Shown here: piece by piece, positions 811 to 6,442 of the stretch
Layout of the letters: each line of letters opens with the position of its first letter
Numbering within the stretch: position 1 is the first letter of the stretch
From: Fodinibius sediminis
GTDB taxonomy: Bacteria; Bacteroidota; Rhodothermia; Balneolales; Balneolaceae
DNA length: 64,000 nucleotides
Direction: 5' to 3'
Assembly (NCBI RefSeq): GCF_900182555.1
Contig: NZ_FXTH01000008.1
Coordinates: forward strand, 62,001-126,000
Position numbers and translations under genes: made by a program
Notes under the pieces: model-generated
The model's input: only the letters and a program-made list of their open reading frames with translations
Told to the model about the DNA's origin: nothing
Database searches by the model: none

Positions 811-1830
811 ATGATTGATCTGCGCAGTGATACCGTAACCAAGCCAACCCCTGAGATGCGAACGGCGATGGCCGAGGCCGAGGTGGGCGACGATGTATTT
901 GCGGAAGACCCCACCGTGAATAATTTCGAACTTAAAATGGCGAATCTTTTTGGTTTTGAGGCAGGGCTTTTTGTACCCAGCGGCACCATGGGTAACCAGC
1001 TGGGGGTACATGTGCTTACGGAGCCGGGCGATGAGGTTTTGATAGAAGAGACGGGGCATATTTTTAATTACGAGTCGGGGGGAGCGGCACACTTGTCTTC
1101 GGTCCAGCTGCGGCCGGTCCGGGGAGGCAGAGGCAAGCTTGCCGAAGAGGATCTGAAAGACCTGGTGCGGGGGGCGCAAGACTGGGAGCCCAATACCAAG
1201 GTGCTGGCCCTGGAAAATTCCACCAACAAGGGCGGGGGGTGCTGCTATACGGATCAGGAGCTCAGGGAGCTTCGCGACTATGCCGACGAGCAGGGACTGC
1301 ATCTCCACCTCGATGGGGCCAGGATCTGGAATGCCATGACGGCCACGGAAACGGATCCCGGCTTCTATGGTGTCATTGCTGATACCTTGTCTGTTTGCTT
1401 TAGTAAAGGGCTTGGGGCTCCGGTGGGATCGATGCTGCTGGCCTCTGCGGGACGTATCAGGAAGGCCCGGCGAATGCGTAAAATGTGGGGAGGCGGCATG
1501 CGGCAGGTGGGCATCCTCGCCGCAGCCGCCGACTATGCAGTGGGGAACCACCTGTCCCTGCTGTCGGAGGATCATCGCAGGGCGCGCGAGCTGGCCCGTA
1601 CAATCCGGACCTGTTCTAAACTATCCATTGATCCGGAGTCGGTAGAGACCAATATCCTGATCTTCGAGGTCTTGGAAGGAACAGCTCAAAAAGCAGTTGA
1701 ACGCCTGCAGGAGGATGATATTTACCTGGTTCCTTTTGGCCCGCAAACCCTGCGGGCAACTTTTCATTTCCAGATTACTGACGATGATCTCGAGAAGGTA
1801 AAGAGTGCCTTTCAAAGCCTCTTCGGCTAG
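811..1830 (+). CDS. ltaE: Low-specificity L-threonine aldolase
   Basis: This cytoplasmic PLP enzyme (fold type I) cleaves L-threonine or L-allo-threonine to glycine and acetaldehyde. The protein is 339 residues, the usual family length. It starts with the conserved MIDLRSDTVTKPT, which fixes the ATG at 811 although the frame is open further upstream from 628. The PLP lysine is in CFSKGLGAPVGS at about residue 199. GDDVFAEDPTVN near residue 30 and LHLDGARIWNA near residue 170 are typical of the family. No Shine-Dalgarno is obvious before 811. It converges on a small exported protein whose stop abuts this one directly at 1830/1831. Confidence 0.93.
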   Translation: MIDLRSDTVTKPTPEMRTAMAEAEVGDDVFAEDPTVNNFELKMANLFGFEAGLFVPSGTMGNQLGVHVLTEPGDEVLIEETGHIFNYESGGAAHLSSVQLRPVRGGRGKLAEEDLKDLVRGAQDWEPNTKVLALENSTNKGGGCCYTDQELRELRDYADEQGLHLHLDGARIWNAMTATETDPGFYGVIADTLSVCFSKGLGAPVGSMLLASAGRIRKARRMRKMWGGGMRQVGILAAAADYAVGNHLSLLSEDHRRARELARTIRTCSKLSIDPESVETNILIFEVLEGTAQKAVERLQEDDIYLVPFGPQTLRATFHFQITDDDLEKVKSAFQSLFG

Positions 1831-2295
1831 CTACTGTTTTTTCGAGTCATCGGTATGCGACTGAAAGAGGGGATTGTCGCGCTTGACGGTGGGTTCCATG
1901 TCATAGATGCCGTAGAAACCGAACTCAAACTGGTTGTTAATGAAGGGGCTGACCGCTCGCATGAACTTCGATAGCCAGTCGGGACCAATATGCTTCTCCA
2001 GCTCTTTGCGGTAGGCCTCAACCGCCATATCCAAATACTCCTGGCCTTTGAAAGGGGGCTGGTAATATTCGGTTTCTTCAGGTACTTCATAGCTTCCCAT
2101 CTCTGTCATGACTCCCCCGGAAGCGGGACGGTCAAATTGGAGATTTAACAGTACAGGGGCAGGTTCATCTTCCTCCAGTTCAAGCTCCTGCCGCGTGCTA
2201 TCGCGTTCCTGGGCAGCAGACGCAAAGGGCAGGCAGAGAAAAATACCGCCAACCAGCAGCAAGCATGACATCAGATGTGTAACGGTCTTCGACAC
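1831..2295 (-). CDS. Small exported protein of unknown function
   Basis: The 154-residue product is not recognised. The chosen start is a GTG at 2295, giving an N-terminus with a lysine, a hydrophobic core and an ASAAQ cleavage region, so it is a credible Sec signal peptide. An internal ATG at 2271 would leave only the hydrophobic core. The mature part is acidic at first (ELELEEDEPAPV) and then aromatic-rich (EYYQPPFKGQEYLDMAVEAY, FEFGFYGIYDMEP). No cysteine follows the signal peptide, so it is probably periplasmic and not a lipoprotein. Its stop touches that of the threonine aldolase gene. Confidence 0.6.
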   Translation of the reverse strand: MSKTVTHLMSCLLLVGGIFLCLPFASAAQERDSTRQELELEEDEPAPVLLNLQFDRPASGGVMTEMGSYEVPEETEYYQPPFKGQEYLDMAVEAYRKELEKHIGPDWLSKFMRAVSPFINNQFEFGFYGIYDMEPTVKRDNPLFQSHTDDSKKQ

Positions 2296-3007
2296 GTCGT
2301 ATGGATCAATTGGCTTTACGGATATACAGCAAATCCCTTCGGATTAAAATAACAGATTAATTGGCAATTTGTTGTATGAATTAGGCAGGGAAGCGGAAGT
2401 TTCGGCGCCGGATTCACTGGCTTTGTGAGAGAAGTTTCGTGCGGCTGCATACCTGAAGCAAAGGCCGGTCAACCCATGATGATTAAGCCATAGCCAGGAA
2501 ACTATCGGTAAACAAAGGGCTGGTGAATGTCCTGAATTAGCTGTTGAAACAGCGGTAAGATCGGAGCTATTGGATCGGTTTTGAATGGTAGCAACAGGCA
2601 GAAAGGAATCATTTGGATGGGGAAAGCCGGAAAAATGACCCTCTGAAGGCTATTTTAAAGGCATATCTTATGAAAAGGCATGGTTTGTTCCCTTTTCAGG
2701 GATTTAACGGCGCTTACAGGCGAATTTCGGGCCTTTTTGAGATAAATGTGCGAAAATATTGCCGATTTTACCCTTCCGGGGATAAATTGAGCGTATTTGA
2801 ATGTTTTGAGAGAGCAGTCGGGAATCTGCAAAAACAGGGTATGCCTTCTTTGTTTTTTGGAACGATATCCGGTGTTGAGTAGCTGGGATTCAGCCTGTTT
2901 TTACCATTGCACCAGATGGACTGGGAACCGTTGTAAGGAGGAGGTAAACAGGAAGATTACAAGCTGCGATGACCGGCGGAGACCGGAGGGGGATTGGAAG
3001 AAAATGG

Positions 3008-3030
3008 AGAGCCCGAAAAGGCTCTTTTTT
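3008..3030 (+). terminator. Rho-independent terminator on the + strand
   Basis: A perfect 6-bp stem, AGAGCC with GGCTCT, encloses the loop CGAAAA and runs straight into a six-T tract (3025-3030). This is a textbook intrinsic terminator. No recognised + strand gene lies upstream within 1.1 kb, because the threonine aldolase ends at 1830. It therefore implies an unannotated + strand transcript ending here. Confidence 0.75.
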
Positions 3031-3114
3031 ATGATGAGTCAGCCCGTAAATTTTGACTTGAAAAAGGGCGTGAACAATAAAGAAACAGGAGTCTGAATTT
3101 GTCCCGAATTGATG

Positions 3115-3146
3115 CCGCGGAATGGTCTAAAATTACCGCGGAATGG
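3115..3146. repeat. Pair of 11-base direct repeats
   Basis: The motif CCGCGGAATGG occurs at 3115-3125 and again at 3136-3146, a spacing of 21 bases or about two helical turns. CCGCGG is itself palindromic. It lies in the purine-rich non-coding region, with no gene immediately downstream. Confidence 0.5.
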
Positions 3147-3876
3147 AGGCTTCAAAATAAGCTCAGACGGCCCAGGAATTTCTGTGCTTTTTGAATGGAA
3201 TCAAGTGACGAATTCAAGGGGGGATACCGGAGGCATTGTTGTCTGGTCAGCGGACGTGATGGAGCCATCGAATCAGTCAAGCGAAGAAGAGGTTCCGCCC
3301 CTGACGAAGCCGTTCGAATCTTCCTTATCAGGGGGGGGCGGGGTACCGTATTTCAAGGGGCCATTGGGATCATTCCGGGGGCGGCTTTGCGGTTGAAGGG
3401 GGAGAGGTCAGGCGCCTGAGGGATCATTAAGAAAGCGGCTGATCAGTCCGGGGGGGAAGAAGATCTGGAGGTGAAAAGAAGGCCTTGGGCAGGGCAGGAT
3501 AAAGAGCGAAATAAGAGACCGGGATATCTTCAGGGGGTGGCAAACAGCAGGTAAATCAAGGCCGGGAAAAAGATGAAAAGAGGGTCAAGGAAAAGTGATT
3601 TGGGACCAATCCGTCATTTTGACATTGCCTGATGGTACTAAGGGTGAAAACCCACTATATGGGGAGATAATTTATTGGGTATCAGAAGGTTATAGGATTT
3701 AGGTAGATTTAAGGCACTTTCGCGGGGATAACTGAAGAAAAGTCGTACTATGTTACTGCGTCAAGTGAGATTTTATAATGTTATAAAATACACCAAAGAA
3801 ACTATATAGCAGTGAGTTAGAATAATAACCTAATAAAATTTCTTGTATATGGAGGAGGACATAATTGAGCGCTGCC

Positions 3877-4035
3877 TAAATAATTTAGGTGGATATGATT
3901 GAATAAGATACGGCTGTTGTCAATAGCAGAGCTGTAAATTTGGTAACAGTAAGGCGCATAGAAAGTTACGATCGTTTATAAATTAGGCCAATACCCATCC
4001 GGGATATGTTTTATGAGGCTTAAATAATTTAGGTG
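3877..4035. repeat. 15-base direct repeat in AT-rich non-coding DNA
   Basis: TAAATAATTTAGGTG occurs at 3877-3891 and at 4021-4035, 144 bases apart. The first copy lies inside a small inverted repeat (CCTAAA-TAA-TTTAGG, 3875-3889). The surroundings are AT-rich and contain no gene. Confidence 0.5.
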
Positions 4036-4192
4036 AAGGGCAGAAATTGATAATGAGACAATTTATCATGCATAAATTAAAAACAATAACTTAAAGTATA
4101 GCAATGGATTAGGATAAATATATAGAAATTACATTTAATAAAATAGCCGCAAACGGTAATGCCGGTCCATGTTTTTGCTTCTTTTGGGGTTT

Positions 4193-4223
4193 AAAAAACC
4201 GCTGGTCATTGCCTGACCAGCGG
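4193..4223 (-). terminator. Rho-independent terminator of tex
   Basis: Read on the minus strand, a perfect 10-bp stem (CCGCTGGTCA with TGACCAGCGG, loop GGCAA) is followed at once by six Ts (A-run at 4193-4198 on the + strand). It sits about 50 bases beyond the tex stop codon. Confidence 0.85.
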
Positions 4224-4270
4224 CTGAAAATGGAAGGGTATTATGACGAAGCTGCAGGGAGGGATTTGCG

Positions 4271-6442
4271 TTATTTCAGGGCAAGTCCGATGCGTCCGCG
4301 CTCCAGGTCGAGTGAGACAATTTGCACTTTTACAATGTCTCCCACCGAGACGATATCATGGGGATCGTCGACCTTGCGGTCGGCCATATTTGAGATGTGA
4401 AGCAGCCCGTCCTGCTTCACCCCGATGTCGATGAACGCCCCAAAATCAACCACATTCCGAACCGTACCCTCGAGCACTTGCCCGGTGCTCAAATCTTCCA
4501 TCTTCATGATGTCTTCGCGGAGCACGGGCTTGGGCAGCGACTCCCTCGGATCGCGACCGGGCTTCTGCAGATTTTCGATAATCAGCTCGAGTGTGGGCAC
4601 GCCAATACCGACCTGTTTGGCCACTTGTTTTTTATCGATATTGGAGAGCTTTTCAGCAATGGCTTCGTGCTGTTGCTGGAGCTTCGAAAGATCGATATTG
4701 AAGAGGTTGCAAAGCGTCTCTGTAGCCTCGTAACTTTCCGGGTGAATGGCGGTATTATCAAGCGGATTTTCAGACTCCGGAATGCGCATGAAACCGGCCG
4801 ATTGCTGGAAGCGAAATGCGCCCACCCCTTTGATCTCTTTAATCTGTTCACGGCTCGAAAAAATGCCTTCGGTCTCGCGTCTTTTTACAATGTTTTTTGC
4901 CACCCTTCGGCTGAGTCCGGAGATGTGTGAAAGCAGCGGAGCGCTGGCCGTGTTCAGGTTGACGCCCACCTGGTTCACGCAGCTTTCCACGACGTCATCC
5001 AGCGACTGGGCCAGCTGGTTCTGATTGACATCGTGCTGGTACAGTCCGACCCCGATGGATTTGGGATCGATCTTGACGAGTTCGGCCAGGGGATCCTGTA
5101 CCCGCCGGGCGATGGAGATGTTACCCCGCTGGGCGGCCTCGAGGTCCGGGAACTCTTCAGCAGCCACCTTGGAGGCGGAGTATACCGAGGCCCCGGCTTC
5201 ATTGACGATCAGGTAATTGAGTTCTTCGTCCGGATGCTTTTCTTTTCTTTTCTGAATGAAGTTGGCCACAATCTGCTCGGTCTCCCGGCTGGCGGTACCG
5301 TTGCCGATGGCAATAAGGTTCACCCCGTATTTATCGATAAGCTTTTCATATATCTCCTCGGCTTCGGCCACTTTGTTCTGGGGTGGCGTGGGATAGGTGG
5401 TGGTACCTTCGAGGTACTTGCCTGTCTCATCCACCACCGCTACTTTGCAGCCGGACCGATAGGCCGGGTCGATACCCATGACAACCTTGTGATCCAGCGG
5501 CGGCTGCATCAGCAGGCTCGACAGGTTTGTGGCAAAGGTCTCGATGGCATGGGCGTCGGCCTCTTCAGTGAGGTGGTTGCGAAGCTCCCGTTCGAGTGAT
5601 GGGAAGAGGAGGCGTTTATAGGCATCTTCCACGGCATCCTGCAGGTGTGGTACGAAGATGCTCATATCGTTGGTGATGACGATATCGTCGATATTCTCAA
5701 GGGTTACTTCATCCCACAGTTCAACATTGACAAACAGTACATTCTCGCGCTCCCCGCGGTTGATGGCCAGCACCTGGTAGGGTTTGAGGTACTTGGTTTT
5801 TTGGGAGAAGTCGTAGTAATCCTCAAAGTTGGTCCGCTTTTCTACGGCTGGATTCTTTTCCGTCTTCAGCACGGAATGTTCCTGGAAGATCTCCCGCAGC
5901 TTTTCACGGACCTCCACCGACTCGTTGATCCACTCGGCCACGATGTCGAGGGCACCGTTCATGGCATCCTCGGCCGATTCAACCTCCTGTTCTTCGTCCA
6001 CAAATTGGGTCGCATGCTCCATGGGATCGCCCTTTTCAATCTCCTGGGCCCAGATGAGCTCAGCCAGGGGCTCAAGCCCTTTTTCCCTGGCCATGTCGCC
6101 ACGGGTGCGGCGCTTCGGTTTATAAGGCAGGTAGAGGTCTTCCAGGGTATTCAGGTCGCTGCACGATTTGATCTGTTCCTTAAGCTCATCGGTTAGTTTG
6201 TCCTGTTCGTCGATGGTTTTTAGAATAGTCTTTTTCCGGTCTTCCAGCGTCCGGTGGAATTCGAGCTTGTCACGCACGTTGCGGATCTGTTCTTCGTCGA
6301 GTCCGCCGGTCGCCTCCTGCCGGTAGCGGGCCAGGAAGGGAACCGTGGCACCATCATCCAGAAAATCAGCCACTGAACTGACCTGCTTGGCTGAAAGGTT
6401 AAGTTCGCTGGCGATGCTGCTATAAATCTGTGATTCGGTCAT
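4271..6442 (-). CDS. tex: Tex-family RNA-binding transcription accessory protein
   Basis: Tex is a cytoplasmic nucleic-acid-binding protein of the Tex/Spt6 family; its exact molecular role is unsettled. At 723 residues it is close to the usual length. An N-terminal helical Tex domain occupies roughly residues 1-200. A YqgF/RNase H-like domain starts near residue 325 with VVMGIDPAYRSGCKVAVV. Tandem helix-hairpin-helix segments follow around 505-570 (LLSHISGLSRRVAKNIV, IKEIKGVGAFRFQQSAGF). A C-terminal S1 domain spans about 650-720 (GQVLEGTVRNVVDFGAFIDI). It is transcribed alone, divergent from the phosphatase gene at 6568, and has a strong terminator. Confidence 0.96.
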   Translation of the reverse strand: MTESQIYSSIASELNLSAKQVSSVADFLDDGATVPFLARYRQEATGGLDEEQIRNVRDKLEFHRTLEDRKKTILKTIDEQDKLTDELKEQIKSCSDLNTLEDLYLPYKPKRRTRGDMAREKGLEPLAELIWAQEIEKGDPMEHATQFVDEEQEVESAEDAMNGALDIVAEWINESVEVREKLREIFQEHSVLKTEKNPAVEKRTNFEDYYDFSQKTKYLKPYQVLAINRGERENVLFVNVELWDEVTLENIDDIVITNDMSIFVPHLQDAVEDAYKRLLFPSLERELRNHLTEEADAHAIETFATNLSSLLMQPPLDHKVVMGIDPAYRSGCKVAVVDETGKYLEGTTTYPTPPQNKVAEAEEIYEKLIDKYGVNLIAIGNGTASRETEQIVANFIQKRKEKHPDEELNYLIVNEAGASVYSASKVAAEEFPDLEAAQRGNISIARRVQDPLAELVKIDPKSIGVGLYQHDVNQNQLAQSLDDVVESCVNQVGVNLNTASAPLLSHISGLSRRVAKNIVKRRETEGIFSSREQIKEIKGVGAFRFQQSAGFMRIPESENPLDNTAIHPESYEATETLCNLFNIDLSKLQQQHEAIAEKLSNIDKKQVAKQVGIGVPTLELIIENLQKPGRDPRESLPKPVLREDIMKMEDLSTGQVLEGTVRNVVDFGAFIDIGVKQDGLLHISNMADRKVDDPHDIVSVGDIVKVQIVSLDLERGRIGLALK

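Follow-up and report, generated by a model that had tools for sequence, protein, structure and literature searches.

A rigid array of nine sites beside tex in Fodinibius-type bacteria, a candidate nucleoprotein scaffold

The window analysed here is a 64-kb stretch of DNA, G000:C8:62001–126000, where G000 denotes the window's own genome. A gene-free gap runs from position 2296 to 4270 of this window, between a 154-aa ORF on the minus strand (1831–2295) and the stop codon of tex at 4271; a preliminary description had placed it at 2296–4192. Among named loci, the closest to this tex (89% identity) are those of Fodinibius roseus, F. salsisoli, Aliifodinibius salipaludis and an uncultured Aliifodinibius, which makes Fodinibius the probable genus. 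The 154-aa ORF is 40–74% identical to its relatives, and by eye its N-terminus is signal-like. The other gaps of the window had been put at about 570 bp or less, which is roughly right, save for one gap of 645 bp (at an ORF cut-off of 100 aa).

The gap contains four ORFs of at least 60 aa (ATG, GTG or TTG start), all on the plus strand and 74–99 aa in length. None makes a plausible protein, in line with the preliminary description: twelve gap translations (two of them from one frame) gave no Pfam match at E up to 0.1, and the 89-aa ORF gave no match among 88 other genomes of the family. A scan of the 64-kb window for tRNA and tmRNA found none. The compositional claims made earlier are accurate as well. 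The plus strand of 3421–3600 was recounted at exactly the purine number reported before, and has more purines than any other 180-base window of the 64 kb (20-base steps), with AT-rich sequence from about 3600 onwards. Across the 64 kb, G-skew also peaks within the gap: the 25 windows of 600 bases with the highest GC skew (50-base steps) start at 2351–3701, and the skew of the gap is 0.29, against −0.35 to 0.21 in 23 other gaps of at least 500 bp from the stretches examined. The terminator noted earlier proved to be two, one in mid-gap on the plus strand (five sites of this kind found, against 2.4 expected from shuffles) and one belonging to tex on the minus strand, and the repeated motif is present at 3874–3891 and 4018–4035. 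Judged by sequence comparison, the gap is two things, a non-conserved left part and a conserved element (Table 1).

Table 1. Coordinates of the gap, its flanking genes and the sites of the conserved element, in window positions.
Feature	Positions	Strand	Remarks
154-aa ORF	1831–2295	−	without Pfam family; synteny kept across all 12 genus genomes
Left part, non-conserved, G- and purine-rich	2296–3604		relatives carry genes here
Terminator-like hairpin with T-run	3006–3027	+	inside left part; downstream of 89-aa ORF (2613–2882)
Most purine-rich 180 bases of window	3421–3600	+	132 of 180 purines
Conserved rigid nine-site element	3605–4154	+	aligned columns hold 523–552 bases in 12 genus genomes
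Site S1	3610–3624	+	relatives TGGCAWTTTGACA-like
Site T1	3674–3697	+	TTG-N5-CAA-N4-TTA
Site S2	3755–3768	+	TTGTCAA-like; weak in G000, rank 9
Site T2	3802–3831	+	CAANNNNTTR in 4 of 13 genomes
Site R1	3865–3890	+	TGTGCG-like (TGAGCG in G000), then palindrome CCTAAATAATTTAGG at 3875–3889
Site T3	3943–3974	+	resembles IHF consensus in 10 of 13 genomes; G000 copy degenerate, rank 80
Site R2	4017–4034	+	palindrome CTTAAATAATTTAGG at 4019–4033
Site S3	4056–4071	+	AGACAATTTATCAT at 4056–4069
Site T4	4094–4127	+	CAANNNNTTR in 5 of 13 genomes
tex terminator	4199–4223	−	outside element
tex	4271–6442	−	adjoins element in 13 of 13 carrier genomes

Anchoring the search on tex and on the 154-aa ORF, I located the same locus in all 12 genomes of the genus, and retrieved the gap from all 11 relatives, where it measures 2.0–4.6 kb. 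This comparison divides the gap, with conservation at 3605–4154 and none at 2296–3604. At the left of the gap, ten of the 11 relatives have an ORF of ∼400 aa, a class-III aminotransferase (PF00202, tested on the G007 copy); adding G021, a genome of another genus, it is missing only from G000 and G011 among 13 genomes. An extra plus-strand ORF is found in G002 and G009 only, the two copies being 47% identical to each other; in Pfam the G009 copy is ChaN-like below the cut-off, and the G002 copy has no match. An aldo/keto reductase (PF00248) is encoded on the plus strand in G009, an ORF in G021 begins with the same sequence, and the gap of G006 retains a remnant of such a gene (48% over 97 aa). 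In the interval from the 154-aa ORF to the element, genes have thus been lost and gained repeatedly (window 2296–3604; L070–L080 and L143).

Since relatives carry varying genes there, 2296–3604 appears to be a place of repeated gene loss, and is probably a separate, lineage-specific remnant of it. The option of a decayed locus, raised in the preliminary description, fits this part of the gap, but no gene remnant is recognisable in G000 itself: tblastn searches of the window gap for the aminotransferase, the ChaN-like ORF and the aldo/keto reductase gave a best E of 0.21. Elsewhere in G000, the aminotransferase most similar to the G007 copy shares 54% identity with it, and G007 itself has another aminotransferase copy, carrying a single in-frame TAA, at G007:C11:633509–634675. 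A block of conservation lying upstream of the aminotransferase was considered as the start of a long RNA and dropped, since in G002 and G009 it coincides with the beginning of the ChaN-like ORF; the block may be the promoter of the aminotransferase.

The last part of the gap before tex aligns nearly without gaps across the genus genomes, and comprises nine sites in the order S1, T1, S2, T2, R1, T3, R2, S3 and T4. R is a 15-bp palindrome, its half-sites using overlapping variants, and the consensus R1 has TGTGCG before the palindrome. Exact R (CYTAAATWATTTARG) occurs at 15 places in nine of the 12 genus genomes, 14 of them in the element, with 0 for the backward control. In the five genomes where both copies are exact (G000, G001, G002, G005 and G007), the palindromes of R1 and R2 start 144 bp apart. 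The sole exact R outside the element in the 12 genomes is at G000:C17:8960–8974 (CTTAAATAATTTAAG). Exact S3 is present at seven places in seven of the 12 genomes, all of them in the element, and its backward control at three. T3 matches the IHF consensus WATCAANNNNTTR exactly in seven of 13 genomes and with at most one mismatch in ten, the G000 copy being degenerate. The pattern CAANNNNTTR is found in T1 of 10/13 genomes, T2 of 4/13, T3 of 9/13 and T4 of 5/13.

Measured in 13 genomes (including G021) on the alignment that suggested the sites, the distances between neighbouring sites vary by 0–3 bp, apart from one loss of ∼10 bp. They are 62–65 bp for S1–T1 (54 in G011), 80–82 for T1–S2, 46–48 for S2–T2, 62–63 for T2–R1, 78–79 for R1–T3, 74 in all 13 genomes for T3–R2, 39–40 for R2–S3 and 37–39 for S3–T4. 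The S1–T1 interval of G011 (L070), ∼10 bp or about one helical turn shorter, is the only large spacing change in the 13 genomes. Outside the element, T4 is 176–391 bp from tex, and S1 lies at gap position 1315–3930. Identity in the spacer columns is random, with a median of 0.29 (range 0.24–0.45).

Held-out tests correct for the alignment-derived definition of the sites, but only partly, because the rows are related. Scoring every position of a gap with matrices built from the remaining genomes put 85 of the 117 sites first and 110 at ranks 1–3; the seven lower ranks are S2 (9) and T3 (80) of G000, S3 of G007 (118), S2 of G005 (90), T2 of G001 (38), S3 of G003 (24) and S2 of G009 (12). A leave-one-out profile, with the other 12 rows realigned, recovered the element in every one of the 13 gaps over 485–535 bases, at E from 3.1e-33 (G021) to 9e-60 (G004), the G007 match beginning at model position 53. 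In longer sequence the left-out element was also found, at 1.1e-37 in the 64 kb of G000, 5.4e-48 in G011 and 1e-37 in G021.

While their bases are scrambled, the spacers are not without constraint. The preference for A/T or G/C is kept per column (variance 0.034, against 0.017 in controls), a value reached by none of 500 row rotations, a control that ignores the relatedness of the genomes. Purine preference is kept to a lesser degree (again 0/500), and amino/keto identity is not (472/500). Relatedness alone should appear in all three classes, and keeping A/T against G/C but not amino against keto is what would be expected if DNA shape is read. Composition along the alignment has no periodicity of 10.5 bp (z −0.5 for A/T), and arithmetic on the site distances gives no common 10.5-bp phase. 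A/T periods of 16 and 21 bp are seen along the alignment (z 7.6 and 7.0), and one of 11.25 bp in purine and amino content.

The element is single-copy in all 12 Fodinibius-type genomes and in G021, and always lies beside tex. A model built from sequence alone on the 12 genus elements finds the G021 copy at E 1.2e-16 (whole-genome), ∼270 bases from tex. In total 13 of 128 genomes of the order carry it at E ≤ 1e-4, and the profile scan gave no match at that level or better in the other 115, with the proviso that the order-wide scans used stricter filters by which weak matches could be lost. Other genomes of the family gave partial matches only (at most 20.6 bits, E of at least 4e-4), which are probably chance matches in AT-rich DNA. 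Weaker matches on the minus strand at the element loci arise because the sites are palindromic. Queried with the whole gap, a DNA search of 57 other genomes yielded no relative (at most five candidates scored per genome), and thus an ordinary sequence search misses the element. Searching viral contigs for tex yielded no further loci, and a literature search returned nothing on non-coding RNA of Fodinibius or conserved intergenic regions of Balneolaceae.

An array of sites whose distances are kept while the spacers are scrambled suggests protein and DNA working together as a machine, more than it does an RNA gene. More precisely, the fixed distances over saturated spacers, the nearly private palindromes and the IHF-type sites together suggest a non-coding DNA element at 3605–4154, single-copy and inherited vertically, that serves a nucleoprotein complex as its scaffold, a reading to which I give slightly better than even chances. 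The T sites (TTG-N5-CAA-N4-TTA, with T3 of the IHF type) would bind a DNABII (IHF/HU) protein and bend the DNA; a DNABII-family protein is present in the family (L059). R1 and R2, both palindromes and with T3 roughly halfway between them, could bind a dimer and be joined by the bend, while S1–S3 would bind a further protein, and the complex itself would be the function. Next to the element, none of the genes could be recognised as coding for a dedicated binding protein. The scaffold also has to accommodate the low fit of T2 and T4 to CAANNNNTTR, the degenerate T3 of G000, the seven low-ranking sites and the lack of a common 10.5-bp phase.

The preliminary description had raised a structured non-coding RNA. 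A functional non-coding locus is indeed indicated at 3605–4154 by the comparison with relatives proposed there, but RNA structure is little supported by Rfam, folding, covariation or terminator strand. The RNA reading can be recast as a large plus-strand non-coding RNA spanning the element, and perhaps the purine-rich part, that carries protein-binding motifs instead of conserved helices; I regard this as possible, though improbable. It would explain the G-skew on the plus strand, which extends over the gap in all 12 genus genomes (0.04–0.29), including the part of the gap outside the aminotransferase, and over the spacers (0.12–0.38 in the 12 genus genomes, −0.03 in G021), where it could reflect transcription. 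At Rfam gathering score there is no match in the window or in 12 relative loci, and at E up to 5 the window has a single irrelevant weak match, to DicF at 2211–2258, outside the gap.

R1 and R2 are able to form hairpins or to pair with each other, and in RNAalifold on 12 rows the energy beats column shuffles on both strands (0/60 each); mean pair probabilities of at least 0.3 are confined to R1–R2 or R1–R1 on the plus strand and to R1–R1 on the minus strand, with five control permutations at 0.29 or less. Single-sequence folding energies are ordinary, with a mean MFE z of −0.88 on the plus and −0.77 on the minus strand in 12 genomes (extremes −3.22 in G011, plus, and −2.26 in G001, minus), and at 3200–3620 the fold is less stable than in 97 of 100 shuffles (z +1.57). 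Among variable columns, helices do not exceed the control (81/100 and 76/100 controls as good, for windows 6 and 8), whereas allowing conserved columns gives a borderline excess (7/100 and 1/100). The 15 short helices found in a search run without a control all fall inside conserved sites.

In R1 a C-to-T change in seven of 13 genomes retains a G-U pair, but in R2 a G-to-A change stands against a retained C in four of 13. Long-range pairing of S1 with S2 and of R1 with R2 was examined and rejected: part of S1 pairs with S2, but the changes are one-sided and uncompensated, GAC of S1 becoming GTC in G003, G010 and G021 while S2 stays GTCAA. A simple scan of the last 420 bases before tex found terminators on the minus strand in nine of 13 genomes, on the plus strand in one (G009, which has both) and none in four, and G000 has a plus-strand terminator upstream of the element, at 3006–3027. 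RNAs, moreover, rarely keep saturated loops at fixed length, which counts against the RNA reading.

It is less probable still that the element is a complex promoter or operator region, serving a candidate short transcript or a neighbouring gene. Its AT-richness, operator-like palindromes and bending-type sites would suit such a role, as would the TATA-like stretches that follow T2 and T4 in several genomes and the short distance from S1 to the aminotransferase start in G005 (234 bp) and G007 (347 bp). However, this distance reaches 2647 bp in G009, with complete genes between, and genes also intervene in G021. Promoter-like matches in 2200–4400 number five against 3.1 expected, and no other promoters share exact R or S3.

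A domesticated recombination or transposition site, left over from a mobile element, is very unlikely. Lambda-type attP and Mu- or Tn7-type ends combine bending sites with protein sites in a rigid array, and the element resembles them in its repeated protein sites at fixed distances and its bending-type sites. Unlike them, it occupies a fixed chromosomal locus, identical in 13 of 13 carriers, with one strong full-length match per genome, and no match was obtained for the R1 pattern in viral contigs, for 3600–4200 in plasmids or for 2296–4192 in phages. Neutral intergenic DNA brought into register by a forced alignment would explain the random identity of the spacers, but is hardly credible, being contradicted by leave-one-out profiles that recover a near-full element of constant length in all 13 gaps.

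Returning to the nucleoprotein scaffold, its most likely role, itself doubtful, would be in chromosomal control or architecture, as a site of the datA/DARS type. I tentatively propose, with less confidence than for the scaffold as such, a new class of control site: a 540-bp single-copy scaffold of Fodinibius-type bacteria, with a putative dedicated palindrome-binding protein and DNA-bending proteins, required to control replication or organise the chromosome. Most known examples of elements like datA and DARS come from enterobacteria. If the proposal is true, a base-exact array of sites over saturated spacers in the Balneolota, which I take to be the phylum of these genomes, would imply that such scaffolds arise independently, and that conservation of spacing can reveal scaffolds missed by ordinary sequence searches.

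Among known systems, OLE, GOLLD, ROOL and HEARO are large structured bacterial non-coding RNAs, and the locus of the element is, like theirs, long, gene-free, conserved and intergenic; unlike them, it matches no Rfam family, lacks covariation in variable columns and has an ordinary folding energy. With oriC it shares AT-richness, several sites and an IHF-like site. In contrast to oriC, it lies on a different contig from dnaA in 12 of 12 genus genomes, and the 3.5-kb dnaA region of each of these has 3–5 exact DnaA boxes (TTWTNCACA), whereas none of the 13 elements has one, and boxes with a single mismatch are at no position common to more than three genomes. The GC skew does not switch at the locus, 20-kb samples of G005:C1 and G000:C8 around it being positive throughout. 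A replication origin or terminus is rejected on the position of dnaA and the sampled skew.

In E. coli, according to PMC4585315, datA, DARS1 and DARS2 are intergenic non-coding sites of DnaA control that hold several initiator sites, with IHF sites in datA and DARS2, and in oriC, datA and DARS the binding sites, and mostly the distances between them, are kept while the spacers change. The element resembles datA and DARS as a single-copy non-coding locus with conserved site distances and varying spacers. It differs from them in having no exact DnaA box, and in that its distances are kept between genera, theirs between strains of one species.
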